A stretch of DNA of 64,000 nucleotides from Symbiodinium sp. CCMP2592 (Eukaryota; Sar; Dinophyceae; Suessiales; Symbiodiniaceae). The stretch's first letter is position 1. Each line of letters starts with the position of its first letter. The stretch is from positions 310,001 through 374,000 of the forward strand of contig CAJNDT010002813.1 in NCBI GenBank assembly GCA_905221615.1, given 5' to 3'. Below the pieces are notes generated by a model. The model was not told where the DNA came from. It made no database searches and saw nothing but the letters and a program-made list of their open reading frames with translations. Position numbers and translations under genes: made by a program. Of this stretch, positions 1-61,747 are shown piece after piece.

Positions 1-2107
1 TCGCTACTATTTCATCTGTAGGTAAGGTTTAGGGCTCACTTGGCATCTTCCTGGCCTTTACACAAGCAATCGATTACATGACAGCTCACGCAAGGTGGCT
101 GTACTCGAAGTGCTACTTCCTGAAATCAGGGCCGCTTTTATCGTTAGATAGGGTTTGGGGGGTATACGATGCTACAGTTGTAATGAGCCACCCTAAGTAC
201 TGGTACGACTCATTATTCCGATCTTGCTTCCTGCGAGCTTCCTCAAGTTGCTCTTGTTGGTTTCGCTATCCCAGAGGGTCCATATACAATACTACTATGG
301 AATTATGTCCCAAAAGACCATCCCTAGCATGTCTTTTGGGACCTAATTCCAGAATAGTAGTGTCTATGAAACCCTTCTGGGTAAAGTTCTCTGTACTCTA
401 TGCTTCCCCAATCAGCTCTTTTTGGTGTCGTTACAATTATTCCTAAACTCTCAGCCCACCTGAAACTCCCAACTACCCTCTAATATACCCCCAAATAACC
501 ACGATTGAAAACCATAAGGACTCTACCAAAGGGGTCTTGGGTGGTCCTGGTACAATTGTTTGTGGTTGCGTTTGATGCTTAGGTTTCCTAGGCTCGGATG
601 GTCCATAGCCCTACTTGTGGCGTATCATGGGGAACTAAAGGCTTACCTTTTTGGTTTATGTAGAGATTATAGAGGGGCTATACTACCCCAAAAAGGTTAA
701 AGGTTACAATTATAGAACCCTACTATAGATCCCTTACAGACCCCTTTAAAGGAACCCTGAAAAAAGGTTAAAGGTTGCCTACGCGACTACCTAGTCTCCG
801 GCTCTTGATGCTGTCTCAAATCCTTTTGGCATTGATCCCACCCTGACTCTGCCTCAGGGGTTTAGGGGTTTAGGGTTTAGGGCCTAATAGGGATTAGGGG
901 TTTGGGGTTTAGGGGCATATAAATGGGGTCATGCATTATTCTAGCCTTTGGGCAACATTAGAATAAGGCACCCCAAGGAATAAAATTACTTTTCTAGCTT
1001 CTATTTATCTTACAACTCTAGCCCCTGAACTGCACCATCACTCTTGCAAACGGAGTGTCAATGCTCCTGTGGCTTTGGGAACTTACTTGTCTCACTGAAT
1101 ACCGCAAAGGGTTGTTGAGGTGCTGGGCATTGCAGCGAATATGGTTTGAAGGTTTCGGGCTCAAGGGTCTGAGGACTTAGGGTGGAGGTGAACCTTCAAT
1201 TGCCGGTAAGACATTATGGAGGAATGCTCGTAACTGTACACACCTAGTCTTGTTTTGAGAATTTTGGAGAAACCAAAACTTAAGGTCCTAAGCCCGCATA
1301 AAGGTTAACAAGTAAACGATTGGGAGTCGGCCGAGGAAAGACGCTTCGGCGTCCGTTTCGCCGTCGTCCGCCTTCGCCTGGAACCGAGATTCTTTGGGTC
1401 TGCAATTTAGGGTTATCTTGTGAGCTACATCGGCCCGTCTACCCTAAACCTAAACCCTATTCCCTCTTCTTGTAAAAGCCACGCCGCGAACCCTTGGAAC
1501 TTGGAGTGCATGAGGTTCGACTTTTGACTTCGGAATAAGATGTAGGTAGGTCCGGGTGTTGTCTGGCAGGCGATTCAGGAAGCTAGGGTTTAGGACTCGA
1601 TTTGGGGTTCAGGGTGAGGGTTAAACCCCAAACCCGAATACTAATCATGAATATTAAGGGCTTGGAGGAAGAGATGACCCCAAGCCCGAAACCCTGAAAC
1701 TACAAACCCAACACCCGCTTGCTTTCGGTGAAACTCCTGCTGAGAATGACGTGCCAAGCCCCACCCCTGAAATCGAGAACTGAATAAGCCGTCGCAAGTA
1801 TCGTGTATTATAGTCTCATTCCACTAAGACCCCACGTAATTTCTAAACATTTGACAAATTCAGGGCATCGGGCCTTGAGTTCTAGGGAAGCAGTTCGGTA
1901 TCAATGAGTTAAGCACGGGGGCTTGAGGATCCAGGGTATTGGGGTTCATATGGTCAGGGGCACCAGGATTTTCTCAGGGTTTAGGGTTTATGAAGATTTC
2001 ACACTCCAATCTTAGACTAGACCCTGAAAACAGAAACCCTATGTTGGACTCTATTGCTGCTGCCTTCTTGCCGCTCTGTACCCGTTGCAGAGTCTCCTGA
2101 CACTTTT
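1..2107. other. Non-coding, repeat-derived stretch
   Basis: Apart from HP-E this holds degenerate TTTAGGG/CCCTAAA text (for example 858-925, 1440-1460, 1975-2045) and AAAGGAACCCT phrases. A frame open from 78 to 446 crosses HP-E and is not credible as a gene. Confidence 0.55.
269..381. mobile_element. HP-E hairpin (MITE-like)
   Basis: TCCCAGAGGG pairs with CCCTTCTGGG at the ends, and the inner arms ACTACTATGGAATT and AATTCCAGAATAGTAGT pair around a short centre. Flanks are TA on both sides. Single copy in the window. Confidence 0.65.
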
Positions 2108-3086
2108 CTTACCTTAGGTTAGTAGGGAATGGAGGAATGGGGTACAACTATAACTACTATTATCTTACACGCACCGAAGGTCTCTTCAACTTGGGGTCCT
2201 TGTAGGAAGAATCAGTGTCTGTAGTCATGTCTGCTTTGTGTCGGCGTTCTGTTGGCTTTATGTTGTCCTTTTCCCGGCACTTTGTCTGACGAGGCACCAA
2301 TGTAATGTTTTGTATCAGGCTTTGTCAAAACTCAATGCGGGGGGGGGCTCCCCTGACTCCTTTCGGTTGGCCGGGGAGCTACTTCAGAAAGCATTTCCAT
2401 GCATGTTCCACTGCACTGTACCCATAGGCACACCGACCTCAGTCCTTTGCTCCCAACTCACAATTGGGAGGGGCCGGGGACACGGCTCGGTTGGGCCATT
2501 GCACATCAAATGCCGTGAGGGTGTGCGGCCGGTTTAGGAACGGTTTGGTGCAGGTGTGAGTCAGGTGCACCGCAGTTTACTGCCAGTATTTGGGCAAAAG
2601 CTGGCTACGCACCAACATTCGTCTTGCATCGTGCTGGCCTAATGCCAACATTTGCGCAAAGGGACACCGGCCAAAAACTGAAAAACACTGGCCAAAAACT
2701 GAAAAAAAACTACGGGGTCGGGGGGCGGAGCAGGAGCGGACCGGCAATGGGAGCACTTACTGTGTTGAATTTCACGTAGCTGCATCGGAGCAGCAGCAAC
2801 TGTCATCGACCAGAGAGAACGCACCAGTTGTTTCGGAGAGATTTCACCGGGTTCATCCGGCCGCTGCAGAACTTCGTGTTGTGTCCTTGTGCTTGCTTAT
2901 CCTGCCAGTACAATTACAACATAATGCCGGCTCAAAGCTAGACAAATGCCGGTGTACTCATGGAATTGAGCAGGGTCAAGCCGGTGAGTTGTAGGCACCT
3001 GAATCCTCCTACAAGGTACCCAAGATCAAGAGACCTTCGGGGCACCTATGATATTACTACCATTCTTCCATTCCACCAAAGGTAAG
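2108..3086. mobile_element. HP-D hairpin interrupted by an 890-bp element
   Basis: The left arm (CTTACCTTAGGTTAGTAGGG onward, to 2162) and the right arm (from 3053 to GGTAAG at 3086) are the two halves of the HP-D hairpin seen intact at 6775-6865. The join falls in the central ACTATTACTACC. Confidence 0.75.
2163..3052. mobile_element. 890-bp non-autonomous element with about 50-bp inverted ends
   Basis: The left end CACCGAAGGTCTCTTCAAC then GGTCCTTGTAGGA (2173-2206) matches the reverse complement of the right end (TCCTACAAGGTACC through AAGAGACCTTCGG, about 3006-3040). ATTA occurs at both junctions (2159-2162, 3053-3056) and may be the target duplication. The interior has two small open frames (2238-2537 and 2590-2994, plus strand) without recognisable domains, and short AAAACTG and GGCCAAAAACTGAAAA duplications. 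No transposase is seen. Confidence 0.6.
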
Positions 3087-4384
3087 TTTTCACGAAGGCT
3101 GCAGGTTGTGAGTTTATGGCCCATGCATTAGTTTAGGGCCGGGGACCTTTGGGGTGTATCCTCCTGTTGTAACAAGCAGCCTTCAGGAATAGCATTGCTA
3201 AGTCTTTCTAATTGCCCCGAAAGTATATTGCGGGATTTGTTGTGAATGTCTACATGAGCTTACTGGGACTTCACACGAGTTCGAAACCCTAAACCCTCAA
3301 CCCCAAATTTGAAGGTTTCGACTTCCTAGCTTCCCAGGAGCCCCTCAATAAATGCTCATGGTAGCCTCTTCCTAAGCGTTCGGTTCTAACAAGGCGACTC
3401 CTGAATAAAGTGTACTACCGGGGAACCCTTGTAGGACCCTCATGGCGCCCTTGTAGAACCCCTAAAGGGAACCTTGAAGGACTGAACCCTAAACCCTAGA
3501 AATCCCTTGTAGAACCCTTTAAAAGGAGCCCTCAAGGATCCCTTTTTTTATATAATTTTTGGAGCCCTTTGAGTCGGAGCCCTTATAGATCCCTAGAGGG
3601 TGCCCTAAAGGAACCCTTCAAGGAGCCCTACATCTTGGGGGAACCAAGACTATGGTGTGTTGCGGGATCTTCGAGCCCCTGGGTGGTGCTTCAGCATCGG
3701 GCTACAGTTTAGGGTTTAGGGATTTACGGGTTTGGGGTTTAGGGGTTTAGGGTCTAGGGTTCAGGGGTTTAGGGGTCTAGGGTTTACAGGTTCAGGGGTT
3801 TGGGGGTCTAGGGTTTAGGGGTTTAGGGATTTAGGGTTAAGGGTTTAGGGTTCAGGGTTTAGGGGCACCAGGCTCAGGTTTTACTTGGACCCTATTATAG
3901 GGCCCTAAATAATGGCCTATACGATTTTTGGGGTTCCTTATTATAGTTATACAGGGCCCTTAAAAAGGGCCTGCCTTTGTTTCTAAGATTTCTTATTATG
4001 ATTTGTTCAGGTACGTCCCTAAAACTGTAGGTTCTTTAGGGTGCAGGGACTTTCGTCTTCAAGCCTAAGCGTTGATCAGGGTAGCGCTAGCTGAGACCTG
4101 GAACTTTCAGCGGTTTATGAACTCATTGATGGGAGGCCAAAAAAGGGGGGTTTAAGATTCTTGGGGTAGGGATTCCTTAATATGAACCCAATTATGGGAA
4201 CCCTAACCCCTACTAAACACCCATAGGCTAAAACCCCTTCTGGCCTCCTATGAAAGTAATCTCCTGAAGTACTCCCCTAAACCCTAAACCAAACCCCTAA
4301 ACCCTAAACCCCTAGAAACCTCCGACAGAAGAACGAAGAGGTGCGGTCGAAGTCTACGCCTGCTGAGATACAGCGCCCTACCTC
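3087..4384. other. Non-coding stretch with a TTTAGGG block
   Basis: This holds AAAGGAACCCT and AGGGGTTCC phrases, a dense degenerate TTTAGGG/TTTAGGGG block at 3704-3865, and a loose hairpin around 3895-3975. No gene seen. Confidence 0.5.
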
Positions 4385-4497
4385 AAGGGTCCATGTACCC
4401 AAATAGTATATACTTTGGTCTTAAAAGTAGTCTCTGTATAGGTACTTTGGGCCTAAAGTATCTACTTTTTGGGTACAAGGACCCTTGGGGCTAGTTA
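4385..4497. mobile_element. HP-F hairpin
   Basis: AAGGGTCCATGTACCCAAAT is paired with GGGTACAAGGACCCTT; the arms run inward through TAGTATATACTTTGG. Confidence 0.7.
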
Positions 4498-5599
4498 CAA
4501 CCCTAAACCCCGAATCCTTCCCCGTCACCCCTACCAGCAGCACCCCCCCAATGGTTCTTAGTAGTGGGTGTGTAGGGCTATATTAGAGGGTAGTTGGGGG
4601 TTCACCCTCAAATACCCTATGCCCTAAGCCCTATACCCACACCCTGAACCCTGAAACCCTCTACCCGAAACCCTATGCCCAAACCCCTTTTCCCTGAAAA
4701 CCAATAAAGAAGTTGCAGTCGTCGTCTCCTCCTGCTGAGCTTCCGCTTGTGCCCACGCATCGGCAACTGCATCCTGCGGTGCCCGCGCGAAAACCCTCAA
4801 ATTTCAGGGTTGAGGATTGCGGGTAGGGTTTAGGGTGTGGAGTTTGGGCTTTAGGTTCAGAGTTCAGGGTTTCGGGTCTAGGGTTTGGAGTTTGGGCAGT
4901 TCCGGTTTGGGCTTCAGGGTTTGGGGTTTCGGGTTTCGGGTGTGGGGTTTGGGTGTGGGCTCCGAGGTTCGGGCTTCAGGGCTTGGGGTTTAGGAGTTTG
5001 GGGGTTTTGAGTTCAGGGCTTGGGGTTTAGGGTGTAGAGTAACCAATGTACCGTTAAAACTTACTACATTTATAATTTAAAACAAAGGTTATATGACCCC
5101 TTTGAAGGTACTTTTTCCTTCTGTTCCAGGTAATTACTTCGGCGACGCCAGGTAGAACCTCGGCCCTATACCCTAAAGCCTACCAGGACCCCCCAAGTGC
5201 CCTTTAAAGGGCTCTGATTTTTCTCAGTAAGAGGTACTTTGGGGCTACAATAAAGGGTAGTTGGGGGCTCTACCCTAAGGGTCCATGTACTCATATAGTA
5301 TATACATTGGGCCCAAGCTCGATTGAGGGTTGCTTTCAGGGTAGCAAGCTACTTTAGGCTCAAAAATAAGGATACAGTTTTAAATCAAGATCTCTACCTA
5401 CGTGTCGGGTATCATGAAAAACTAAAGGTTAACCTTTGTGGTTGTATAGGGGGTTATTTAGGGACTACACTACCCAAAAAGGGCTAAAGGTTACCCACTC
5501 TACTAACTATACTAAGGCCCCTAGTACTATCAGGGCGTTATCAGGGTTTCGGGTCTTGAGCGGCTCACCTGAACACGAATCCCCTAACATAAGGGCTGC
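4498..5599. other. Degenerate TTTAGGG text and hairpin fragments
   Basis: Dense GGGTTTGGGG/TTTAGGG variants lie at 4800-5040. An isolated HP-F half-arm lies at 5278-5320. No gene seen. Confidence 0.5.
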
Positions 5600-21686: not shown

Positions 21687-23176
21687 CTACGGTTTAGGGT
21701 TTAGGGTAGATCTGTTGTACATTTTGTACAGCTGATCCTGCACGGCACTGCTGTCACCACCACCGCTTGCACTACCCCAGGTCACCACAAATCCATCGCG
21801 AAGAACAGCTGCAAAAGCGGTTGAAGAGGCCTGTATCAGCTGCACATTCTTGAGCTGATGCTGCACAGCACTACTGTCACCACCAAACCGCGCATAGCCC
21901 CATGTCACGACGGATCCATCGCCAAGAATGGCAGCAAAAGCGGCGCCAGAGGTTTGAATCTGCATCACATTCTTGAGCTGTTCCTGCACAGCACTACTGT
22001 CGCCACCATAGCGAGCATCACCCCAGGTCACGACGGATCCGTCACCAAGAATAGCAGCAAAAGCGTGGGTGGAGGACTGGATCTGCTGCGCCTTCTTCAG
22101 TTGAGCCTGCACAGCACTACTGTCACCACCACCACCGGCGCACCCCCAGGTCACAACCGATCCATCAGCAAGAATGGCAGCAAAAGCTTCTGCCGTGGCT
22201 TGGACCTGCAGCACATTCGTCAGCTGATCCTGCACAGCACTACTATAGTTACTATCGCCATCATCGACAGCCTCGCCCCAGGTGACGACACGTCCATCAC
22301 AAAGGATGGCAGCAAAAGCATGTTGACAGGACTGGATCTGCTGCACATTAGTTAGCCGGTCCTGCACAGCACTGCTGTTGCCACCAGAGTCAGCATCACC
22401 CAGGTAACGACCGATCCATCGTCAAGAATGGCTGCACAAGCGCATGAACAGGACTGTATCTGCTGCACATTCTTGAGCTGATGCTGCACAGCACTACTGT
22501 CACCACCAATCTGCGGATTGCCCCATGTGACGACGGATCCATCGCCAAGAATGGCAGCAAAAGCGCACCTAGAGGCTTGAATCTGCTTGACATTCTTCAA
22601 CTGATCCTGCACAGGACTGCTGTCACCACCATTCAGCGCGTCACCCCAGGTCACGACAGATCCGTCACCAAGAACGGCAGCAAAAGCACAAGCAGTGGCT
22701 TGGATCTGCTGCACTTCTAAACGCTGACGGCCGGTCATGCTTCGGTCAACACCCATGCCAGCAAAACCCCATGTCACAACGGTTCCATCGTCACGAACGG
22801 CAGCAAAGGCAGCGCCGGTGGCTTGGATCTGCTGCACAGTCTTCAGCTGATGTTGCACAGCATGAGAGTTACCCCCGCAGCGTTCATCACCCCAGCATAC
22901 GACCGAACCATCGCCTAGAATGGCAGCAAAAGCGCTGCTGTTGGCACATATCTGAAGGCTGATGTGCAGCGTGAGTAGATCACCATTCTGCACCTTGGAA
23001 TCCTTGATTGTTGAGCATGCATTCAGCACGCTCCCGAATGAGTCCACGAGTCGGCCTTTTCCAACCCCCAGTGCTGATTGCGCCCGAAGCATCAGCATCT
23101 CTAGCTGTTCATCCAAACTTGCTCTCACAGTGGCTTTCCTGCCGCTTAGCAGCCCAACTTCCACAGCAATCGACAT
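21687..23176 (-). pseudogene. Frameshifted paralogue of the ubiquitin-like/RCC1-repeat gene
   Basis: The start is the ATG of MSIAVEVGLLSGRKA at 23176, aligned with the start of the intact copy; a longer frame from 23185 begins with GTG. A ubiquitin-like N-terminus of about 80 residues precedes ten 41-residue repeats. In the fifth repeat, near 22396-22402, the usual CACCCCAGG of the plus strand is CACCCAGG: one C is missing, and the frame shifts from GSVVTW into VMLTLV while homology continues in another frame from 22367 on. In the tenth repeat, near 21735, two extra bases shift the frame again. Repeat homology then ends directly at a CCCTAAACCCTAAACC block (21696-21711), which supplies the last residues. 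Copy two also has divergent repeats, for example MGVDRSMTGRQRLE. A sequencing error could explain one shift but hardly both plus the truncation. Confidence 0.72.
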
Positions 23177-23718
23177 ATTGCACACCGAAAATGTTCCGAG
23201 GCTTCACGGTATAAGTTCAGGTCAAGGACAGCTGAGGCAGAGCTGAGCTAATGTAGGGGCAACTACCATACTACTCCTTCGGGTTCCTCAATTCTTAAAA
23301 TAGCAATATTATACTATACTATACTCCCAAAACTTATTCCAAATCTTAAAAACCCTTCTTCCTATGGTCGGAAGCTTGCAGTGTTCTTCATCCGGGCACT
23401 TTCATGTAGGGTTTGGGATTAAGGTTTTAGGGTTTACAAATGCAAAAGACGCGACAGACAGGCAAAACACTACCATTCCAAGAGCTTCAACGTTCAAGTG
23501 TGCGCACTTTGTAACATTTAGGTGCCTGAGCCGTGGAAACAGCAGCCAGCAAAAGACCTTCGGTCTCTCCCACCCCCATATCACGAGCAATACAAGCACC
23601 TTAGGCTTTGGGTTTAGTCTCGGATCTTTTAAACGAACGTGCCCAGGCTCTGCGCGACTTTTAGAAGGAATGTGTCTAGGCACTACAGGGCTGTTATCCT
23701 TCAGGATGCTTACAACTT
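23177..23718. other. Upstream region of the broken RCC1-like gene
   Basis: Possible promoter region; no motif recognised. From 23402 to 23723 frames are open on both strands without coding character I can identify. Confidence 0.35.
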
Positions 23719-24341: not shown

Positions 24342-24448
24342 TACCCTCTATTTTACCCTAGACGCCCACGACAGGTCTAGAATCTAGGGGTTCGCCGAAG
24401 CCATAAGCCTTGCTCTGGTCAGTTGTAGGGGCCTCGGCCTTAATTATA

Positions 24449-24829
24449 CTAATATTAATAATAATAATAAGAATAATAAGAATAATAAGAATAATAAGAA
24501 TAATAAGAATAATAAGAATAATAAGAATAATAAGAATAATAAGAATAATAAGAATAATAGGAATAATAAGAATAATAACAATAAGAAGAATAAGAATAAT
24601 AATAAGAATAAGAATAATAAGAATAAGAATAATAAGAATAAGAATAATAAGAATAAGAATAAGAATAAGAATAAGAATAAGAATAAGAATAAGAATAAGA
24701 ATAATAAGAATAATAATAATAATAGTAATAATAATAATATTAGTAATAATAATAATAATGATGATAATAATAATAATAATAATGATGATGATAATAATAA
24801 TAATGATGATGATAATAATAATAATAATT
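24449..24829. repeat. (AAT/AAG)n trinucleotide microsatellite
   Basis: About 380 nt of AATAAT, AATAAG and AATGATGAT. Both strands read as long Ile-rich frames, which are artefacts. Confidence 0.96.
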
Positions 24830-25350
24830 GGAATAGGGTTTTGGGGGATCCTGAATTGTGGTTGCACTAGTATATCATACCTCATACCCCAAAACCCTAC
24901 ACTAGTTCTTCTACGTTATGTCACCGGAGAGCTCGAGTTGCTACAGACAGAGTTGAGGAGGTGCTGAAGGCTTTGGGCTCGCAGGCTTGACTCCAAGTCC
25001 TCAAAATACCTTTGTAAAGGACCCTAAACTATGGGAACCATAGTATAGTCCTTACGTATTGTGGGTAGTTTTCATCATCTGTAGTAGGTTCATAGTTCCT
25101 GAATTTATAAGGCCCCCAAGGTGTAAACTTTTTAAATCTATAGGGGATACAAGGGCCATTGGAAGGTCTGGGTAGGCATAGAGTCTTCGGAATGTGTTGG
25201 ATTGACTGAGAAAATCTGTATTTATTATTGTATAACCGAGGACTCATGACATACTATTGCCGAGGGTTTGGGGGTACCAGTAGGGCATTTTTGACTATAC
25301 AGTTTCATTCCCTTATGCAAAATGGGACTCCGAAAACTAAGCAGCACAAA
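24830..25350. other. Non-coding stretch
   Basis: Contains an HP-B terminal fragment (TTGGAAGGTCTGGGTA near 25158). No gene seen. Confidence 0.4.
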
Positions 25351-33879: not shown

Positions 33880-35352
33880 TTAGACGGACTTGTGATTCTG
33901 GCCAGTCTGCAGCTGCTTCTGCACAGCACTACTGTCACCACCAAATGCAGGCTCGCCCCAGGTGACGACGGATCCGTCGCCAAGGATTGCAGCAAAAGCT
34001 TTGTAATTGGCTTGGATTTGCTGCACAGTCTTCAGCTGATCCTGCACAGCGCTGCTGTCGCCACTCCAGCTGGGAGCACCCCAGGTCACGACGCACCCAT
34101 CACCAAGAATCGCAGCAAAGGCGTGGCGAGTGGCTTGGATCTGCTGCACATCCTTCAGCTGATCCTGCACAGCGCTACTGTCACCACCATATAAGGTAGC
34201 ACCCCAACTGACGACCGATCCGTCGGCAAGAACGGAAGCAAAAGCACGCTCAGAGGCTTGCACATGCTGCACATTCCTGAGCTGGACCTGCACAGCGCTG
34301 CTGTCGCCACCATAGCCGAAATGACCCCAGGTCACGACAGATCCATCCCCAAGAATGGCAGCAAAAGCACCTTCACTGGCTTGGATCTGCTGCACATTCT
34401 TCAACTCGTCCTGGACAGCACTGCTATAGCCACCATCGACAGCATCGCCCCAGGTGACGACACCTCCATCAGCAAGAATGGCAGCAAAAGCACCGTGCGT
34501 GGCTTGGATCTGCTGCACATTCCTGAGCTGTTCCTGCACAGCACCACTGTCACCACCAAAATCAGCATCACCCCAAGTGGCAACGGATCCATTGTCGAGA
34601 ATAGCAGCAAAAGCGACGACAGAGGCTTGGATCTTTTGCACGTTCTTCAGTTGATCCTGCGCAGAACTACTGTTACCACCAGCGTCAGCATCACCCCAGG
34701 TCACGACCGATCCATCACCGAGAATCGCAGCGAAAGCGTAGTAAGTGGCTTGGATCTGCTGCACATTCTTCAGCTGGTCCTGCACAGCATTGCTGTCACC
34801 CCCCTTGTCAGCATCACCCCACGATACGACGGATCCTTGTGCGAGAACTGCGGCAAAAGCGCCGCAAGAAGCTTTGATTTGTTGAACATCTTTCAGCTGG
34901 TCACGCACGACACTGCTGTCGCCACCATAGCCGCAATGACCCCAGGTCACGACAGATCCATCAGCAAGAATCGCAGCAAAGGCATGTTCATTCGCCTGGA
35001 TCTGCTGCACATGCTTCAGCTGGTCCAACACAGCACTACTGTCACCACCATTGTAAGGATCACCCCAAGTCATAGTTGATCCATCGCCAAGAATGGCAGC
35101 AAAAGCAGAACAGGTAGAGTGAATCTGAAGTCTATTTAAATGCAAGATCAGTGAGTCGTTATTCTGAAGCTGGGCAGCCGCGACTGTTGAACTTGCCTCC
35201 AATATACTTCCAAATGAGTCCACAAGGCGCCCTCTTCCGATTCCAAGCGCTGTTTCTGCTCGAAGTTTCAATGCTTCCACCAGTTCACCCTCATCTGCGG
35301 TTACAGTGACCGTCTTTCCACTCAGAAGTCCAACTTCCACAGATACCGACAT
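33880..35352 (-). CDS. Ubiquitin-like plus RCC1/HERC2-like repeat protein
   Basis: The protein is 490 residues and starts at a good ATG (MSVSVEVGLLSGKTV). Residues 1-75 look like a ubiquitin-like beta-grasp domain: alternating hydrophobic strands, then LGIGRGRLVDSFG and NNDSLILHL. From residue 83 there are ten repeats of exactly 41 residues with the core AFAAILGDGSVVTWGD, then GGDSSAVQDQL, then VQQIQA. This is an RCC1-like (HERC2-annotated) repeat of a family I recognise from Symbiodinium-type dinoflagellates. RCC1 repeats normally form a beta-propeller used for protein or chromatin binding; the ligand here is unknown and no HECT domain follows. The last repeat departs from the consensus after AVQKQLQ and stops, so the gene could continue through an unseen splice or end there. 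A paralogue with the same layout lies at 21687-23176 on the same strand. Confidence 0.8.
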   Translation of the reverse strand: MSVSVEVGLLSGKTVTVTADEGELVEALKLRAETALGIGRGRLVDSFGSILEASSTVAAAQLQNNDSLILHLNRLQIHSTCSAFAAILGDGSTMTWGDPYNGGDSSAVLDQLKHVQQIQANEHAFAAILADGSVVTWGHCGYGGDSSVVRDQLKDVQQIKASCGAFAAVLAQGSVVSWGDADKGGDSNAVQDQLKNVQQIQATYYAFAAILGDGSVVTWGDADAGGNSSSAQDQLKNVQKIQASVVAFAAILDNGSVATWGDADFGGDSGAVQEQLRNVQQIQATHGAFAAILADGGVVTWGDAVDGGYSSAVQDELKNVQQIQASEGAFAAILGDGSVVTWGHFGYGGDSSAVQVQLRNVQHVQASERAFASVLADGSVVSWGATLYGGDSSAVQDQLKDVQQIQATRHAFAAILGDGCVVTWGAPSWSGDSSAVQDQLKTVQQIQANYKAFAAILGDGSVVTWGEPAFGGDSSAVQKQLQTGQNHKSV

Positions 35353-51358: not shown

Positions 51359-51595
51359 ATTAATGTATTTTGGAAGGTCGGACTTCAGTTGTGCCTTTGA
51401 GGACATGAGGGCTTCATGTTTTCAGGCTGCTGTTTTCCATAAGGCTCCATGTACCCACATAGTAGATAGATACTTCAGCCTTAAAATACCTATACAGGGA
51501 CCCCTTTAAGGCCTATCTATCTACTATAAACAGAGCGTATCCCAGGGGAGGGGGAAGTGTTCGAGTTCGAGTTCGAGTTCCAGTAAGAGTTCGAC

Positions 51596-51596
<1 letters not shown>

Positions 51597-51627
<31 letters not shown>

Positions 51628-51678
51628 CGTCGTCGTAGTAGTAGTGGTAGTAGTAGCAGCAGTAGTACCAGTAGTAGC

Positions 51679-51731
<53 letters not shown>
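51597..51731. repeat. (TAG)n microsatellite
   Basis: Imperfect TAG trinucleotide tract with CAG, CCAG and TCG interruptions. Confidence 0.9.
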
Positions 51732-51733
<2 letters not shown>

Positions 51734-51739
51734 AGAGTA

Positions 51740-52037
51740 GTAGTAACAGTAGTTAGGACTAGTACTAGTAGTTGCAGTCGTAGTAGCGGGCCCCGGGGAG
51801 TTCGAGTTCCAGTTCGAGTTTGAGTTCGACGTGATAATTTCGGCGGAGGGGGCAGTACTACGTCTAACGGGTCGAACGAGTTCGACCACCGGGCGAGCGC
51901 AGCCCGGGGGTTTGAGTTCCAGTTCGAGTTCGAAGTGCAGCAGCAGCAAAATTTCGACGCGGGGGGGGGGGGGTTCGAGTTCGAGTTCGACCACCGGCCG
52001 GGCGAGCGCAGCCCGGGGGGGGGGGGGGGGGGGGGGG
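51740..52037. repeat. GAGTTC-rich repeat with direct copies and poly-G runs
   Basis: GAGTTCGAGTTC phrases alternate with poly-G (51961-51973, 52014-52037). A phrase TTCGACCACCGG, CGAGCGCAGCCCGGGGG occurs at about 51883 and again at about 51987, so a unit of roughly 105 bp is duplicated. Confidence 0.75.
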
Positions 52038-52073
52038 AGGGGCGGGAGTTCGAGTCGAGTTCCAGTTCGAGTT

Positions 52074-52375
<302 letters not shown>

Positions 52376-52385
52376 CTTCGTGGTG

Positions 52386-52800
52386 GCGGCATGCCTGATG
52401 AGGTGCGCGGCTTTGAGTTGTGACGCGGTGCGCACACCGCAGCCGCGCACCACACATACCTTGGCGATGTCAAACGCAGCTTGCTCGAATATGAGTGCAA
52501 GTCCGAAGCATGCGAATACGCAGCTAGATGCAGCCTGGGCTCCGTTTCACGTGGACCTGCAGCTTCGGCGTCGCACGTGGCGCTTCCATCAGGAAGACCC
52601 TGCTTGCCGCAAAAGCAGCAGAAGCGGCCGCCGAGTAGTGTTGTCTTGGCGCAGTCAGGCAATGCGAAAACACGGAGCCCTGCATGGAGTGGGCCTAGCA
52701 AAACGCGTTGCAAAAACTCGTGCGGACAGGTGGCACAGCCGCAGTGGCAACACGTCCTTTCGGCCGTCTGAAGAAAAAGCCACGCCGCCACGATCGAGCG
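52386..52800 (-). other. Coding-like segment with clustered cysteines, unrecognised
   Basis: Within the 2.9-kb insertion a minus-strand frame contains TCCHCGCATCPHEFLQ, a stretch around LHAGLRVFALPDCAKTTLLG, then RFCCFCGKQGLPDG. The C-x2-C pairs resemble a zinc ribbon, and composition is balanced, unlike its neighbours. It has no start of its own and runs into the poly-Tyr tract at its 3' side, so it is at best an exon or gene relic. Confidence 0.28.
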
Positions 52801-52839
52801 ATCTGTCGTGCTAATTGCCGAGGCTGTCTGTGTGGGTGT

Positions 52840-53110
52840 GTAAGTAAGTATTATGAGTAAGCAAGTAAGTAAGTAAGTGTGTGCGTACGTAAACGTGTGT
52901 CCGCGTGTGTGAGTGTTTGTGCGTGTCACAGCGAGAGAGCGTGCGAGTGAGGGTGTGTGTCTGTGTCAGAGAGAGAGAGTGTGTGTGTGTGTGTGTGTGT
53001 CTGTGTCTGTGTGTGCGCGTGTCTGTGTGTGTGTGGGGGTGTGTGCGTGTCTGCGTGTGTCTGTCTTTGTCTCATGTGTGTGGGTGTGCGTGTGCGTGTA
53101 CGTGTGCGTG
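52840..53110. repeat. (GT)n and AAGT-rich low-complexity tract
   Basis: AAGT repeats at about 52841-52880 are followed by imperfect (GT)n with GC, CT and GAGA interruptions to about 53110. Confidence 0.85.
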
Positions 53111-53119
53111 AGCTGCGTG

Positions 53120-53590
53120 GTCTCTGTGAGCTAGACGCAGGCATGGGCCACCTGGAAGCCAGCAAGGCCTGCAGTGGCATTCGCAAAATTGCGACTGCCA
53201 CACAGCATGCCAAACGTTTGAAACAGCAGACGCCGCGGAACACAAGACGCGGACCTACAGCGATAAATGTCCGCAGTTCGCGGCAGCTGGGCAAGTCTGT
53301 GGAGGAAACACATACTCATTTACGTTTCCACTTCCAAATCTTCCAAATGCATTTGCGTGACTCCGAGTGATCGACGAGTCTTCGGCCCGGATACATGTCG
53401 AGAAAAAGCAGTTGCACAAGTGCCTGGAAGTGGGTCCGTCTGGATATCGAAACAATCGAACCCTCTCGGGCGGAGCCTCTACCCTGGAAGCAAGTGGTAT
53501 CTGCCGAGAAAAGACAGCAAATGACAGCAACAGTTGGCATCACACGGGTGCAATGCTTCGTCCTCCAGAGACAGTACGTGCTGTTGCTTG
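53120..53590. other. Unique sequence island inside the 2.9-kb insertion
   Basis: This is balanced-composition sequence with open frames on both strands (plus-strand segment near EASKACSGIRKIATATQHAK; minus-strand segment near ASRVEAPPERVRLFRYPDG). I cannot decide the strand or recognise a family. Confidence 0.25.
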
Positions 53591-53608
53591 TTCTGGTAGC
53601 ACGAGTAG

Positions 53609-53615
53609 TATAGTC

Positions 53616-53663
<48 letters not shown>

Positions 53664-53701
53664 CTAGTAGTAGTACTAGTAGTAGTAGTAGTAGTAGCAG
53701 C

Positions 53702-53735
<34 letters not shown>

Positions 53736-53765
53736 CTAGTAGTAGTACTAGTAGTAGTAGTAGTA

Positions 53766-53796
<31 letters not shown>

Positions 53797-53891
53797 AAGT
53801 AGAAGTAGAAGTAGTAGTAGTAGCAGCAGTAGTAGTAGTAGTAGTAGCAGTAGTAGTAGTAGTAGTAGTGGTAGTAGTAGTAGTAGTAGTA
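53609..53891. repeat. (TAG)n microsatellite with ACTAG and AAG interruptions
   Basis: Third TAG tract of the insertion, in the same orientation as the others. Confidence 0.92.
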
Positions 53892-54200
53892 CAGTTTCAG
53901 TTTCAGTTCAGTCTCAGTTTCATTTCATTGTCCTTGCAAAAACTTTTCCGGAAGGGGGGGGCTTTCAGTTTCAGTTCAGTATCAGTGCAAAATTTTTTCG
54001 GGGGGGGTGCACAGGGGGGCGGGTTCAGTTTCAGTATCACTGCAATTTTGTTTTCCGGCGGGGGGGGGGGGCCGTTCAGTTTCAGTTTCAGTGCAGTCTG
54101 AGTGTAGAGGGAGGGGGGCGTTCCGTGTCAGTTTCAGGTGCATTTTTTTTTGGGGGGGGGGAAGCATTCGGTTTCAGTTGCAGTTCAGTCTCAGTGCACC
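53892..54200. repeat. TTTCAG-phrase repeat with poly-G spacers
   Basis: Units of about 60-80 nt each consist of TTCAGTTTCAGTTCAGT-type text, a GTGCA plus T-run, then a G-run. At least five degenerate units are visible. Confidence 0.75.
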
Positions 54201-55615: not shown

Positions 55616-55760
55616 GTTGACTGTTGTTGCGTCTGCTTCGTTTCGTCAAGGGTCGCCGGTTGAGGAGTTGTTGGTACTCGTGCTAAGCATCTGACGATCC
55701 TGAATAGGGTACCGTACAAAGACAGCATTTTCGGATAGTTATATACATATATATATATAT

Positions 55761-55790
55761 GGACACACCCCCCCCATGACCTACCTCGGC
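55761..55790 (+). repeat. Left terminal inverted repeat of the two-gene transposon
   Basis: The sequence runs from an (AT)n tract into GGACACAC, eight C, ATGACCTACC, TCGG. It pairs with the reverse complement of 61690-61726, with two or three mismatches and a different C-run length. Confidence 0.75.
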
Positions 55791-56010
55791 CTCTTTTCCA
55801 TTGTAAATACCGTCAAAACCTTCTCTTGGCAGGGATTCCCGTTTGGCATACGATTCGTGTTTTGCGTAATTTTCGGTGATGATACCTTCTCTATCATGGC
55901 CGATGTGAAGTCATGTCTCTTTACAACGTCGTGCCTACTCATGTCCGCTTTCAAATTCATATGCCTGTATTCATAAGCAAGAAACATTAAAAGAAACCAC
56001 ACGATACGAC
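55791..56010. other. Left subterminal segment of the transposon
   Basis: This is ordinary-composition sequence between the left terminal repeat and the tandem repeat. A minus-strand frame with a segment near MNLKADMSRHDVVKRHDF is open through most of it, but it runs into the repeat and matches nothing I recognise. Confidence 0.3.
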
Positions 56011-56845
56011 GGCGGAAACCAAAAAAACAAAAATCCAAAAATCCAAAGCCTTTCTGAGGGGCCCGAAACTTTTGGATTTTTTGGTTTTCCTAGGTCTTTT
56101 TTGGTTTTTTGGGCTTTGCCTTGGCGAAACCATGTTTTTTTTATTTTCGGTGGAAAACAAAAAACTCGAGGTTTTTTTGTTTTTTCTGCTGTGTCTCTGG
56201 TGCAAAACCAAAAAACACCTGTGTTTTTTTTGGATTTCTGCTGGAAAACCAAAAAAACTCAATGTTTGTTTGGTTTTTCTGCTGTGTCTCCGGTGAAAAA
56301 CCAAAAAACACCTGTGTTTTTTGGGTTTCTGCTGGAAAACCAAAAAAACACTTGGATTTTTTTGGTTTTCTGTTGGAAATCCAAAAAAACACTAGGAAAA
56401 CAAAAAATCCAAAAGTTTCGACCCACTGACAAAGGTTTTGGATTTTTGTTTTTTTTGATTTTTGGTTTTGTGGTGTTTCGGCGGAAACCAAAAAACAAAA
56501 AATCCAAAAATCCAAAGCCTTTCTGAGGGGTCCGAAACTTTTGGATTTTTTGGTTTTCCTAGGTCTTTTTTGTTTTTTTGGGCTTTGCCTTGGCGAAACC
56601 ATGGTTTTTTTCTGGATTTTCGGTGGAAAACCAAAAAAAACTCAAGGGTTTTTTGGTTTGTCTGCTGTGTCTCTGGTGCAAAACCAAAAAACACCTGTGA
56701 TTTTTTGGATTTCTGCTGAAAAACCAAAAAAACCTTTGTTTTTTTGGTTTTCTGTTGGAAAACCAAAAAAACCCTAGGAAAACCAAAAAATCCAAAAGTT
56801 TCGACCCCCCTGACAAAGGTTTTGGATTTTTGGATTTTTGGTGCT
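56011..56845. repeat. 469-bp tandem repeat of quasi-palindromic GGTTTT/AAAACC text
   Basis: The phrase GGCGGAAACC starts at 56011 and again at 56480, and most of the 469-bp unit recurs, ending near 56845. Each unit contains many small inverted repeats, GGTTTT...AAAACC, spaced 20-50 nt. The open frames here on both strands (rich in Lys-Lys-Thr or Phe-Gly-Phe) come from the low-complexity text and are not taken as genes. Subterminal position suggests transposase binding sites or foldback structure, which is inference. Confidence 0.75.
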
Positions 56846-57075
56846 GGGAATCTTGCGACTAGTCTAGCGTGCAGCCTGCTTGACAGGAAATGGCTTCGTT
56901 GCGGAAGCATTTGCAGCAGATCTCGCACAAAGCCAAAGCGAAGCAGAAGGTTGATTGGATGGATGTATGAACCATTGTTTTGAAGCGACCCCAGCACATG
57001 CCTGTCCGCAATCAAAATCTCCGTGAGACTCAAAACTGGAACTTGTCCGGAAGCCCTCACTATTGCAACAACCGC
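56846..57075. other. Segment downstream of the transposase; small plus-strand frame
   Basis: The sequence between the tandem repeat and the transposase stop includes a short plus-strand frame starting at an ATG near 56890 (MASLRKHLQQISHKAKAKQK, then VDWMDV and a stop). It is basic and amphipathic in appearance but only 26 residues, and could be chance or a captured exon. Confidence 0.2.
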
Positions 57076-58710
57076 TCACATGCACAGAAACTTCATCATT
57101 GCCCCTGTTGCTGTCCACAAACTCTTCCCCTTTTGCCAATACACCCACTGCGCGCTGCGGATCTTGCGAATCATGACATCGTTGCCGGGGAAACGAGGAG
57201 CGTACTTCAGGTGGGAACGTAGGTGCTGCCAACATCTGTCGATTATCTGCGTCCCACTCTTTACCTTGAGCTTGTTGCCGTCTGGCAAAGACAGGCTGTG
57301 CACTTTGGTGTAATGCGGCTTCACCCACATGACCTGAGCACTAGAGTAGCCAACAGAAAAAAGAAAATTACTGTATAATACCCTATTTTGTATTCAATGT
57401 AAACTATGAGCGAGGATTGCGGTTAACAAAATGGGGCTTTTTTTTCCTCATTGTTGGCTTGCTTAACCCAGACATACGCGTAACAAAGTGGCGGGTCGGG
57501 CGTGTTAAGAACAACTCTTAACGTCTACGAGCTTTGTATTCGGAACAATCTACGACTGCGGTTAACAAAATGGGGCTTATTTTTTCTCATTGTTGGCTTG
57601 TTCTTAGCCAAAGTAAGTTGCTAACAAGATAACAGTTTTAAAGTCTAAAGTTCGAAACCCAGCAGACCGTCAATCAAAAGTTGCTCAATTCTGTCGTGCC
57701 ACCTTGCCGTTCACCTTCACTTTCTTTTTCTTGTGCACTACATTGCAATGCTCCACTTGATCTAGCTTTAGCTTGTATGCTCTCGCACCATCCGTGTGGA
57801 GCACGATTCTCTTGCCCTCCAAATACTGTTTGGCCACTGGTTTCCAATCACGTTTCCTGATGGGTCCTGGTCCGGGGGATCGCGCTTTTGTGAGCGGCGG
57901 TTCGAGCCTGATGAGACGAAGACTTGCGGGTGAACCACGTTGAACCACTCCCAACCACTGCTCCCACCTTGTGTTCAACTTGCGCTTGTCATTGTTTTCC
58001 ACTAACCCTTTGCCCAAATCGACCTCGTCAGCCTCCACATCCACCCAACGAGGACTCCCACCATACTGTATGTGTTTCTCATGTGCGAGTACGAAGCGTG
58101 CACGTGCGATGTCAAGGTTGTTGTAGATGCGCGATACAATCTTGTCGTTGACATCCATGATCTTGGACACGCAATGCTGGGGCACGGCGGCAGTGGCGCA
58201 CAGGAGGATGGAGGCCTGTGTCTGAAGACTGGTTTGGCTGGCACCAGCTCCCTGAACAAAAATGGGATGAAATTCGGGGGGTTGGACATACTTTTGGCAA
58301 AACTTCGCACTGCATCTGTGCGCCCAAACTTTCCGATACGGGTAGAACGTAAGCTTGTTCAACTTGCCCGCTCCACAATGCGGACATGGCCGGTTGCTCC
58401 ATTCGGGGATAATTTGATCTTGCCGAAGAAGACGAACAAGACTTGGATATTTCATGGAGGCGAACCTCTGGATGGAACGGCCCCACCGCTCACGACTCGG
58501 CCTACTGACTGTACTTGGGGTCCCATGACGCACATAGGGGATCTTGGCGAATTTGGACACGACTTTCTTGGAAGGCCGCTTTGCGACAGATCTGGCCTTG
58601 CCCCTTTTAGGGGCGGGCCAGGCTCCACGATGACTGCTACTTTTCATGGTTTTCTTCGGCATGGTGCTGTACAACCGAAAAACAAAACTCTTCGAACAGA
58701 GACGCTGCAT
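57076..58710 (-). CDS. ISXO2-type DDE transposase (Merlin/IS1016-like), two exons
   Basis: This gene probably encodes the enzyme that cuts and joins the element ends. I propose exon 1 at 58710-57703 and exon 2 at 57333-57076, with a 369-nt intron (donor AAG|GTGGCA, acceptor CTCAG|GTC), phase 0, giving 421 residues. A basic N-terminus (residues about 17-55) could be a nuclear signal. A zinc ribbon follows: CPHC at about 109-112, then HRC and KFC near 131-138. The ISXO2 DDE domain shows the first acid in VEADEVDLGKG (D228), the second in LHTDGARAYK (D307), and the third in GTQIIDRCWQHLR (D368). The family more often has Glu at this last place. The closing IRSAQWVYW segment also fits the family as I know it. 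The start could instead be the ATG at 58662. All three acidic positions are present once the intron is removed, so the gene may be functional. Confidence 0.8.
57334..57702 (-). other. Predicted intron in the transposase gene
   Basis: The donor is GTGGCA after AAG and the acceptor is CTCAG before GTC. Splicing joins KVNGK to VMWVKPHYTK and restores the third catalytic acid. The intron contains two copies of a GCGGTTAACAAAATGGGGCT phrase about 140 nt apart (near 57417 and 57557) and three similar TTGTTGGC-type or TTAACAA phrases, so it carries its own internal repeat. Confidence 0.6.
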
Positions 58711-59154
58711 ACACGTGTTTCACGTTGACAAACGAATGCTCTGTCTGAGGAGTGATTGCACGCACAGCTGATGTGGAGCGCACATATTTTCGAAGCACAC
58801 AGTGAGAAAATGCCGTTATGACTCTGCCATTGTGTTCTGCTGACAGCCCCTCTTCTTATAAAGATTGTGTTGATGATAATGTTCTGCTTTCGAGTTTTAA
58901 GGACGTCGACTGATACGACACAAACAACACTACACATTCTGTATATTGTGCAGTGAACTGAACTCTGGTTTTCGTTCGAGGGAAACAAAACCTACCAGCA
59001 CGGTCGATGCTGTTGTGTCTGCTCCACGCGCCACATACACTTTCACACTCAACCTATGTTATATCAACTCGCATTTCGGTATGCGCGCACATGCAAACAC
59101 AGACACACACTGGCACACACACGCACACTCACTCGCACAAAGGCCACCGTATCC
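58711..59154. other. Intergenic region between NTPase and transposase genes
   Basis: These 444 bases should hold the 3' end of the NTPase transcript and any promoter of the transposase. An imperfect (CA)n tract lies at about 59095-59140. I see no convincing promoter motif, and a shared transcript is possible. Confidence 0.4.
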
Positions 59155-61324
59155 TCAATGGATATCCTCCGCGACATCCATGGCATCACCACCAAATGAA
59201 AGCTGATCCTCTTCATCATGAGCATCTCCTGCCTCGTCCCCACAAGGAAATTCGGGTGAACCTGGGTTGGGAATCTCGGCCTGCCGCATTTGCTCCTCGA
59301 GTTGCTGGGTGAGGCTTTCCTCAACGACTGATGGACGAGGCGGTTTCTCTGGCGAAGAATCCAAATCGATGGTGGTCCCCCCGACCTCTGAAGAAGTAAG
59401 CGTTCGGAAAATGCCGGGTTCAAGCTTGACTTTCTTCAAGGGCTGAGCATCGGAACACGTAGATGTGTGCGTTGCAGGCTTCGGCTCAACATCTGCACCC
59501 GTAGACTTGTCCGCATGAGGCCTAGCCGAAGAGGATGGATTTGGGGTCTCGAAAAGATTGCTCACATTCCTGACAAGGGCATGGCTTAGATCCAATCGTG
59601 GTTGTGGATGAGATTCGACATGGTCTGCGAAGATATTCTTTCTGATGATGGTGGGCCTGTACTTTAACCCGGAAATGTTCCCCTTCATGGCTTTCTCCAC
59701 CCACTCCGTTTCCCACGCAACCTTGCTATCGAAATCTGCGGGCATGTTCGTGCCACCTTTGCGATGGTAGTCGTAGACGGAGCGAGATTCCAAATGCAAC
59801 AAATCCAGCTTGTCGTCCAAAGGAATACGAAGTACTGGCGACTCTTTCTCGCTAGCGGGCCTGACATACAAAAAGGTTTTGGTCTTGAGAAGGATGTGCG
59901 TCCGCTTCAAAACCGCCATGACATTTGCCTCGTTTTTGTCCTTGGGACACCAAGCGGGTTCCAGCATGTTGAGAAAGTCACCGTGAGTGGCATAGGAGAT
60001 GATGCCTTGACGATGGGATAGGATGGGGAGGTCGTTTTTGGGCTCCGCCTTGCGATCGTAATCGTTCACACAATAGATGCGGGGCTGCCCTTTCACCCAT
60101 TTTGCGGCACCCCACCGCTCCTTAGACATACTTTCAATGTTTCCAACATCCGTGAAAGCCTTGAGCTTCTTGAACGGTTGCTCAGGGAGGGTGCCGTCAT
60201 CGAAAATGTCGGGACGAAGAATCTTGGAACTTGCAGCGCAAACCAGTTGAAACAACTTCAATGTCACGAGTTCTTGAATATACAAGATTAAGCAATAAAT
60301 GACTTGTGTTGAACCGAGAAACCTGCCCAGATTGACCTCGAAAGAAATCAAACTCCGACGCCTGTCGGAATGATGGTTCAACCTCGCCCTGTTTACCGAT
60401 GCGGTTGATGTAGTAGCGCGACAGAGCCATAGCCACCGACCTTGCCACCGGGGTTTTGCCCGCGCCCGGCTCGCCGAACAAACCCAATGCCTTTTCCGAG
60501 AAAGATGAAAACAACGGGGCCAGTGCCTTGAGAACTCGCACGTCGATGTCATACAAAGTTAAGCACCATGACGTATGAACTTGCGCAAGTACTCCGTCTT
60601 GGGCGAGGTTTCGAAGAGACTTCTCGACTAAGACTGGGGGCCAACGGAAGATTGGCGAGTCCTTGTTGCTAGTTTGAACCGTCACCCACCGCAACATGCG
60701 ATTTTTAATGTTTTCGCGAGGGCCGTTCAGCTCTATGAAGTCAAACCCAAAGTCCCACTCCTCCTGCGACCGCTCGCTTTCCGGCTTGCCCTCCTCGGAC
60801 TGCCTAAACACATGTTGACGACATTGGAAGCCACCTAGCCGCTCGAAGACAAAGTGAATACATTTTTTCATGGTTTTCACCTCCCCCTGCCAGTTGAAGC
60901 AGTAAGGCGTGCCGTAACAAAGATCCCGAGCCGCGTCAACTTTCATGAGCTGGGGGAAGTGGAACAATTTGATGACGGTGTGCTTACCGTTTTGCTGGAG
61001 CATGATGGCGATGTCAAGCTTGAAGGGACCTGTAATCTTAGACTTCATCCCGAAAGGAGCTGGTATATCTTCGTAGGTCTTGGATTGGAAGCCTTCCTTG
61101 ATGACAGCTTTGGGGACCTCGATATCCACGTCAGACACCAAGTCAACGAAACACTTGATCTTGCCACCCGCCGGGAAATCCAGAGTAGGAAGATCCACGA
61201 ATGTAAGCGGGCCACTCGGGGATTCGTGGAAGGAGTGCATGTCTATGGGGAACACTTTAAGATTATCCACGGCTTTCTTCACATCGTCAAGATTGAAGTC
61301 TCCTGACACCCACTCCCCAGACAT
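59155..61324 (-). CDS. Transposon-borne P-loop (AAA+-like) NTPase, two exons
   Basis: I propose exon 1 at 61324-60323 and exon 2 at 60222-59155, separated by a 100-nt intron (donor CAG|GTTTCT, acceptor CCAAG|ATT). The frame is preserved at phase 0 and gives 689 residues. The start is the ATG of MSGEWVSGDF; an upstream in-frame ATG at 61414 would add 30 residues. Visible motifs are a Walker A, GEPGAGKT, at about residues 284-291; an FDFFRG segment just before the splice; RPDIFDDG just after it, a plausible Walker B; and RIYCVNDYD, which resembles an AAA+ sensor-1 strand ending in Asn. The C-terminal 150 or so residues are rich in Pro, Ser and acidic residues and look disordered. The gene lies upstream of the transposase, same strand, inside the same terminal repeats. 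By analogy with TnsC, TniB or IstB it might regulate transposition, but this is inference. I do not recognise the N-terminal 280 residues. Confidence 0.72.
60223..60322 (-). other. Predicted intron in the NTPase gene
   Basis: The minus-strand donor GTTTCT follows CAG, and the acceptor AG ends TTCCAAG. Removing 100 nt joins RGQSGQ to ILRPDIFDDG in frame. Without removal the first frame runs past the junction into unrelated sequence. Confidence 0.6.
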
Positions 61325-61689
61325 TGCACGGAGACAAAGAGTTAGGGACAAGGCGCTTGAAATCGTTTTGTGCCGAAATATGCTTACACTAACAGGTACG
61401 CCTCGTGTGCACATGCTTCAACAGCGAGCTTGAGCATGCGATGCGATTTCCAACATTTTTCCTTTTGCTGCGATTTGAAGTCACACAATTCCGGAAACAA
61501 TGCAAGCACGGAGTAATAATGACGAATAGCATTCTGTAGTGTACAATATTCAGCAGTAATCGTAGTCGATATGGTTAACTCTTCCGAAACTGTCTGCCTA
61601 ACTAAGACAAGTGGCTAAGCAATTAATAAACGAAAACTAAACACAATAGAACACCAAGCCAGAAGTTGCTCAACGTCGCAGCCGAAGCA

Positions 61690-61726
61690 CCTCGCGGTAG
61701 GTCTTGGGGGGGGGGGGGGTGTGAGC
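61690..61726 (-). repeat. Right terminal inverted repeat of the two-gene transposon
   Basis: On the minus strand this reads GCTCACA, fourteen C, AAGACCTACC, GCGAGG, matching the left terminus. It is followed outward by (AT)n at 61727-61747. Confidence 0.75.
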
Positions 61727-61747
61727 ATATATATATATATATATATA

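Follow-up and report, generated by a model that had tools for sequence, protein, structure and literature searches.

A 64,000-nucleotide stretch of the genome of the dinoflagellate Symbiodinium sp. CCMP2592 (contig CAJNDT010002813.1, positions 310,001 to 374,000 of the forward strand; this whole stretch is referred to below as the window) contains an intact-looking DNA transposon of the IS1595/Merlin-related lineage, which encodes a transposase and, 492 bp upstream of it on the same minus strand, a P-loop nucleoside triphosphatase (NTPase). Copies of this element sit in tracts of alternating AT, (AT)n, throughout the host genome, and relatives of the NTPase are repeatedly found next to relatives of the transposase. 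These findings suggest that the mobile element is of a new, two-part kind. The reading favored here, which is tentative and held at a little below an even chance, is that of a mobile family in which an IS1595/Merlin-related transposase with a D-D-D catalytic set is partnered by a Rep-like superfamily 3 (SF3) helicase that would load on (AT)n targets. The element and its surroundings in the window are organized as follows (genes are given further below):

55761-61726, minus strand: complete two-gene element of 5966 bp, with ends common to other genome copies
55740-55760, no strand assigned: AT-rich tract to the left of the element (target), as in the flanks of the copies read
55761-55789, plus strand: left terminal inverted repeat, beginning GG, with 81 exact-pattern genome copies including that of the window
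56010-56842, no strand assigned: internal repeats (133-bp and 237-bp direct copies, as well as inverted copies), common to the non-coding copies
61688-61726, minus strand: right terminal inverted repeat, beginning GC on the minus strand
61727-61747, no strand assigned: (AT)n tract to the right of the element (target), as in the flanks of the copies read

The left end starts at 55761 with the sequence GGACACACCCCCCCCATGACCTACCTCGG and reads inward as GGACACACC(C)nATGACCTACCTCGG, and the right end, in reverse complement from 61726, reads GCTCACACC(C)nAAGACCTACCGCGAGG. When the 851 pairs of C-runs of at least 6 bases in the window were compared over the 13 bases that follow the run, the best match was the one between these two ends (11/13). 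The left-end pattern occurs in 81 copies in the host genome (1.1 Gb, 5383 contigs), the two-gene ones included, and its reversed control in 0. A terminal repeat arisen by chance is ruled out by these two comparisons. In addition, once low-complexity words are excluded, no 14-mer of the element's interior recurs in the window at a distance of over 8 kb, while at least 0.97% of positions share distant 14-mers in each of 498 overlapping, equally sized segments to the left of the element; because the repeat-poor tract continues to approximately 63000, beyond the right end, this test marks the left boundary only.

Twenty stretches picked from the genome matches to the element were read, which together with the window amount to 21 copies. 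One of them, L092, is a second two-gene copy. Its flanks differ from those of the window copy, and it matches positions 55744-61747, with an identity of 98.4% over 56223-61747 and 95.5% over 55744-56277, and of 98-100% for the proteins. Between both copies, the NTPase has accumulated seven nonsynonymous and eight synonymous changes (pN/pS 0.25) and the transposase two and one, respectively, too few to judge selection on the latter; no stops have appeared in either gene. The remaining 19 stretches are copies of the element of 2.4-2.9 kb without a match to either protein. All of them hold the left end and 18 also the right end, which was not found in L101; L103 and L104 have identical flanks and possibly represent one site counted twice. 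Similarity ends at the same points in all the copies read except L101.

Because L092 and the other copies stop at the same points, the boundaries of the element are real, as the first-pass annotation of the window had proposed when it described a complete element delimited by inverted termini; among the copies read, none places the boundaries elsewhere, the right end of L101 aside. The annotated position of the NTPase gene within the element, on one strand with the transposase, has also been confirmed, since both full copies carry it, and the L092 copy rules out that this gene lies outside. The idea that both genes always co-occur between the ends has to be restricted to the window and L092, as it does not apply to the 19 gene-less copies, which, we infer, depend on two-gene copies for mobilization in trans.

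(AT)n is the insertion context of the element at 55761-61726. Alternating AT of at least 8 bases appears in the left flank of 20 of the 21 copies and in the right flank of 19 of 20, with a background of 73 in 58034 window positions outside the element (0.13%). Genome-wide, ATATATAT immediately precedes the left end at 75 places; it directly precedes 73 of the 81 left-end copies, and the other eight lack it.

The transposase gene encodes a protein of 405 amino acids in two exons (58662-57703 and 57333-57076):

57703-58662, minus strand: transposase exon 1, with a zinc ribbon, D212 (EADEV) and D291 (HTDGA)
57334-57702, minus strand: transposase intron, 369 nt, GT-AG
57076-57333, minus strand: transposase exon 2, with the predicted third catalytic residue D352 (GTQIIDRCW)

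This intron could use several in-frame donors, of which the one chosen agrees with the relative in locus L129. As judged from its sequence, the protein is a distant relative of IS1595/ISXO2. It matches the NCBIfam model transpos_IS1595 with an E value of 5e-6 (26.5 bits, under the curated cut-off of 75), and it scores 13.0 bits against a profile derived from viral contigs, which yielded 77 IS1595 proteins, 66 of them retained after length filtering; 2000 shuffles reached at most 6.1 bits on this profile. The Pfam ISXO2 domain (PF12762) gives no match in the window transposase, nor does exon 2 by itself match the IS1595 profile. In a global alignment, D352 falls on the catalytic Glu of IS1595, so that the predicted catalytic residues are D212, D291 and D352 and not a DDE triad. 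The third residue is Asp in five of the six open reading frames (ORFs) compared (window and L129-L132) and Glu in the divergent L112 protein. The annotation of an ISXO2-type transposase with its key motifs has therefore been upheld with regard to its kinship with IS1595/ISXO2, but not to the third catalytic residue, which is D352 and not Glu.

The NTPase consists of 689 amino acids and is also encoded in two exons (61324-60323 and 60222-59155):

60323-61324, minus strand: NTPase exon 1, with the N-terminal domain and the Walker A motif GEPGAGKTP (residue 284)
60223-60322, minus strand: NTPase intron, 100 nt, GT-AG
59155-60222, minus strand: NTPase exon 2, with the DD motif (IFDDG), RWGAAK, the Asn of VND and a C-terminal IDLDSSP

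The acceptor of its intron is ambiguous from the sequence alone, and intronless relatives point to 60223; an alternative intron of 67 nt was discarded on the same grounds in favor of the 100-nt one. A Pfam scan yielded only weak P-loop matches, and an assignment of the protein to a Pfam class was accordingly dropped. One of these profiles, IstB_IS21, matches the P-loop region under its cut-off (E 0.31). Near the C-terminus, an IDL[DC]..P motif, which we take to resemble a SUMO-interacting motif, is found in five of the 19 rows of an alignment of relatives, including the window NTPase (59155-60222), and in one further doubtful row, many of the 19 rows being fragments without a C-terminus.

This alignment, composed of NTPase relatives, some of them in pieces, and both window exons, was used to model the fold. 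AlphaFold on exon 1 alone gave an unusable model, with a predicted local distance difference test score (pLDDT) of 33.5, whereas a relative of 648 amino acids was modeled with a mean pLDDT of 76.5, which is around 90 across much of the core and below 50 at residues 543-648. Foldseek searches with the latter model retrieved two PDB structures at E ≤0.001, the Rep of Vientovirus FB (2.4e-5) and norovirus NS3 (7e-4), followed by weaker matches to Lon, BrxL, MCM, ClpC, dynein, papillomavirus E1, parvovirus NS1 and circovirus Rep. No chain of TnsC, MuB or IstB is among the 50 PDB matches listed. A viral library gave 232 matches at E ≤0.001; among the 50 listed, many, including the first (9e-12), are nameless, and every one that does carry a name is annotated as Rep or replicase (8e-11 to 5e-8). 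The Rep matches cover several hundred columns of the model.

The residues G281, G286, K287, D339, D340 and N384 are near-invariant across 15-16 covering rows, of which some are near-identical to one another, R367 is likewise near-invariant in its covering rows, and the protein thus holds the Walker A motif, the Asp pair and the Asn of motif C that define an SF3-like core. According to the model, this core is predicted to be a Rep-like SF3 helicase (AAA+-like), with a fold closer to that of SF3 helicases and CRESS Rep proteins than to that of TnsC, MuB and IstB. The N-terminal domain may be of the Rep-endonuclease or origin-binding type, without the HUH residues: isolated Rep-endonuclease and E1 DNA-binding domains match its model with E values of 0.13-0.14, and its alignment shows neither an HUH pair (the most conserved His is present in 11 of 15 rows and is Leu in the window protein) nor an invariant nuclease Tyr (the best is present in 9 of 14 rows).

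The relationship between both genes was studied by searching the host genome for each protein. With the NTPase, 65 of 334 candidates were scored and yielded 76 matches at 59 loci; with the transposase, 103 of 366 candidates were scored and yielded 119 matches at 93 loci. A listed transposase lies within 10 kb of 29 of the 59 listed NTPase loci, where 0.1 pairs would be expected by chance. In 29 of the 29 listed pairs the transposase is downstream of the NTPase on the same strand, within 2 kb in 28 of them, many of these pairs being near-identical copies of a few families, so that the independent families are fewer than 29. Examples of repeated families are seven loci with a frame of 712 amino acids and five with related frames of 692-830 amino acids, and several of the NTPase families whose frames are open have multiple copies. 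The NTPase is a regular partner of the transposase, with a constant NTPase-then-transposase order wherever both are listed.

The other 30 NTPase loci have no listed partner, and the downstream side of three families among them was read. In L112, the NTPase is followed by an ORF of 493 amino acids that carries D, D and HTN..E and weakly matches the ISXO2 domain (E 0.022, below the gathering score). In L113 and L114, it is followed by a different transposase-like ORF, putatively of a second kind, which has no informative Pfam match and was called by inspection (L114:675-1967, with DGNF..HDDACH..NMSESFNAWIR, and L113:649-1758). NTPase homologues are therefore found beside ISXO2-related transposases at 29 of the 59 listed loci and, weakly, in L112, but adjoin another putative kind in L113 and L114. 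The possibility that they lie mostly away from transposases, considered in part here, has not been observed. With regard to the insertion context, (AT)n directly precedes GG..CCCC in L112, L129 and L131, and L133 and L134, which represent a fourth family, cease to match each other just past the (AT)n that follows GGGGGGGGGTAGC.

Several other features of these loci were observed. A third ORF is common to several NTPase elements (L113:2291-2833, L114:2142-2831, L129:2087-2596 and L131:3853-4836; pairwise E 4e-4 to 3e-17) and, at a threshold of E 0.1, has no counterpart within the element of the window; the one from L114 weakly matches the PAP1 transcription factor family (E 0.0056, below the cut-off). 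In L132 (positions 1-4863, minus strand), a retroelement-polyprotein-like frame of 1621 amino acids adjoins a transposase relative for which no NTPase was found upstream. Three further occurrences of (AT)n followed by GG..CCCC were detected in 518 kb (both strands) of other stretches, in L107 and L092 on the minus strand, and these may mark the termini of related elements in the same superfamily.

In the proposed mechanism, the helicase would assemble on easily melted (AT)n DNA, which it would open or mark, and would bring or activate the transposase, which in turn would join the element at the (AT)n tract; gene-less copies would be moved in trans by the two-gene ones. Either role for the helicase, target loading or replication of the element, is one that we infer. 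Since the copies sit in (AT)n, which is a correlation only, the helicase may plausibly contribute to target choice. Several observations weigh against this proposal. No target-site duplication is visible at the element, nor did an empty site turn up, although no search was aimed at one; the 8-9 bp expected for Merlin/IS1595 would be indistinguishable within alternating AT and is considered hidden, because both flanks are (AT)n. No listed NTPase is found at 64 of the 93 listed transposase loci, and of the four of these that were read, L129 and L131 do have an upstream NTPase (E 1e-35 and 7e-74), while L130 and L132 show none within approximately 5 kb upstream (one-sided fetch, with a gap of Ns in L130). 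The string of (AT)n followed by GG..CCCC was not found in L113, L114, L130 and L132, for which one gene side was fetched. Regarding the fold, TM-scores by query range from 0.08 to 0.25 and root-mean-square deviations are mostly large, so the domain arrangement is unsupported, and the kind of N-terminal domain is ambiguous because HEBP2/SOUL domains score slightly better on it (E 0.04-0.08) than the Rep-endonuclease and E1 domains. Finally, a Mutator-like family for which the abstract names only a transposase also targets TA microsatellites (PMC4486113).

This last observation also favors the main rival of target loading, namely that the Rep-like helicase replicates the element, as an excised circle or an integrated copy, raising its copy number, and that the transposase alone picks (AT)n. 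The model is structurally closest to replication initiators, along with other SF3 helicases, which argues in the same direction, and the (AT)n flanks could act as an origin melting site. Nevertheless, rolling-circle nicking by the NTPase is unlikely because of the lack of an HUH pair and an invariant Tyr, and replication is held to be somewhat less likely than target loading. Alternatively, the NTPase could be a captured passenger or host-derived gene without a part in transposition, consistent with gene-less copies that move without carrying it and with L130 and L132, which show no NTPase in the approximately 5 kb upstream. This explanation is improbable, as it is weakened by the order and strand kept in all the listed pairs, while several open-frame NTPase families are multi-copy and NTPase relatives also adjoin another putative transposase kind, a situation not expected from a single chance capture. 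MuB and TnsC confer immunity, the avoidance of self-insertion, in Mu and Tn7. A mainly regulatory NTPase, which would prevent self-insertion or over-activity, would have a precedent in the dedicated ATPase of IS21, reported to regulate site choice and catalysis (PMC11208146), but the modeled fold indicates SF3/Rep and not TnsC/IstB, and such a role is very improbable. Apart from target loading in the window family, a broader proposal, which is more tentative still and clearly short of an even chance, is that the Rep-like SF3 helicase is a shared and exchangeable partner of at least two transposase kinds in one genome, sending the ISXO2-related ones to (AT)n. They would form a lineage of helicase-assisted transposons that originated independently of Tn7, Mu and IS21 and made use of a replication initiator in place of a TnsC/IstB ATPase.

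Searches outside the host genome were negative: no relatives were found in viral contigs by two protein searches or by motif-pattern scans, in plasmids by tblastn of the transposase, or in phages by tblastn of the NTPase. Five viral-contig loci from a further scan were rejected, with no NTPase match and transposase matches at chance level, and one match in a Saccharopolyspora genome contig was taken for chance. Elsewhere in the window, two regions (21687-23185 and 33880-35352) hold ORFs of tandem repeats of 41 amino acids (AFAAILGDGSVVTWGD), presumably RCC1-like; another two (51517-54101 and 24358-24967) consist of long short-unit tandem repeats, several frames of which give Tyr, Thr, Leu, Val or Ile runs. 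Scattered TTTAGGG-like repeats are also present and, like the ORFs of 41-amino-acid repeats, fit a dinoflagellate host; a spliced-leader search found none.

Like Merlin/IS1595 elements (ISXO2, IS1016) and the Symbiodinium families Sy.m_F1, Sy.k_F1 and Sy.k_F2, as far as these are described in the main text of PMC8101967, the window element encodes an IS1595-type transposase, with a zinc ribbon and an identical order of its two aspartates, and has a left end beginning GG, internal repeats and imperfect ends. In contrast, it is 6 kb long, with two spliced genes, an Asp as third residue, a helicase partner and (AT)n targets. Terminal repeats beginning GG are the rule given for Merlin in PMC8101967; the element has GG at its left end and GC at its right end. 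The main text of PMC8101967 makes no mention of an ATPase, helicase, accessory gene, introns, second ORF or two ORFs, and among the papers listed by term searches of one open-access library, no title or abstract opening describes an ATPase or helicase in a Merlin or ISXO2 element. The picture of Merlin-type elements as carrying the transposase as their only gene does not apply here, as both full copies hold the NTPase.

Tn7 (TnsC), Mu (MuB) and IS21 (IstB) combine a transposase and a dedicated P-loop ATPase in the same element. The window element resembles them in encoding an ATPase that adjoins its transposase, but differs in its spliced genes, located in a large eukaryotic genome, and in that the ATPase is SF3/Rep-like by predicted fold. 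The first-pass annotation had proposed an analogue of TnsC, MuB and IstB; as a matter of family, this has not been sustained, given the E value of 0.31 for IstB_IS21 and best folds among Rep and SF3 proteins. The modeled SF3 helicase core is shared with CRESS-DNA virus Rep, papillomavirus E1 and parvovirus NS1, from which the NTPase differs in adjoining a transposase, in lacking an HUH pair and an invariant Tyr, and in the C-terminal IDLD..P of several members. The helicase of Academ elements belongs to another helicase type. AcademH DNA transposons, a eukaryotic lineage encoding a helicase according to PMC10045372, are similar to the window element in this respect but have a transposase of another superfamily. 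The MuTAnT Mutator-like elements of Medicago insert into TA microsatellites, but their transposase is mudrA-like and no ATPase appears in the abstract (PMC4486113).

If the proposed reading is true, eukaryotes would have their own two-component transposition machinery, with a viral-Rep-like partner helicase. To our knowledge, eukaryotic cut-and-paste transposons are usually described as needing the transposase alone. Replication initiators would then be tied to transposition, in a system that places DNA into (AT)n repeats, and this may help explain how large repeat-rich genomes are filled with mobile DNA.

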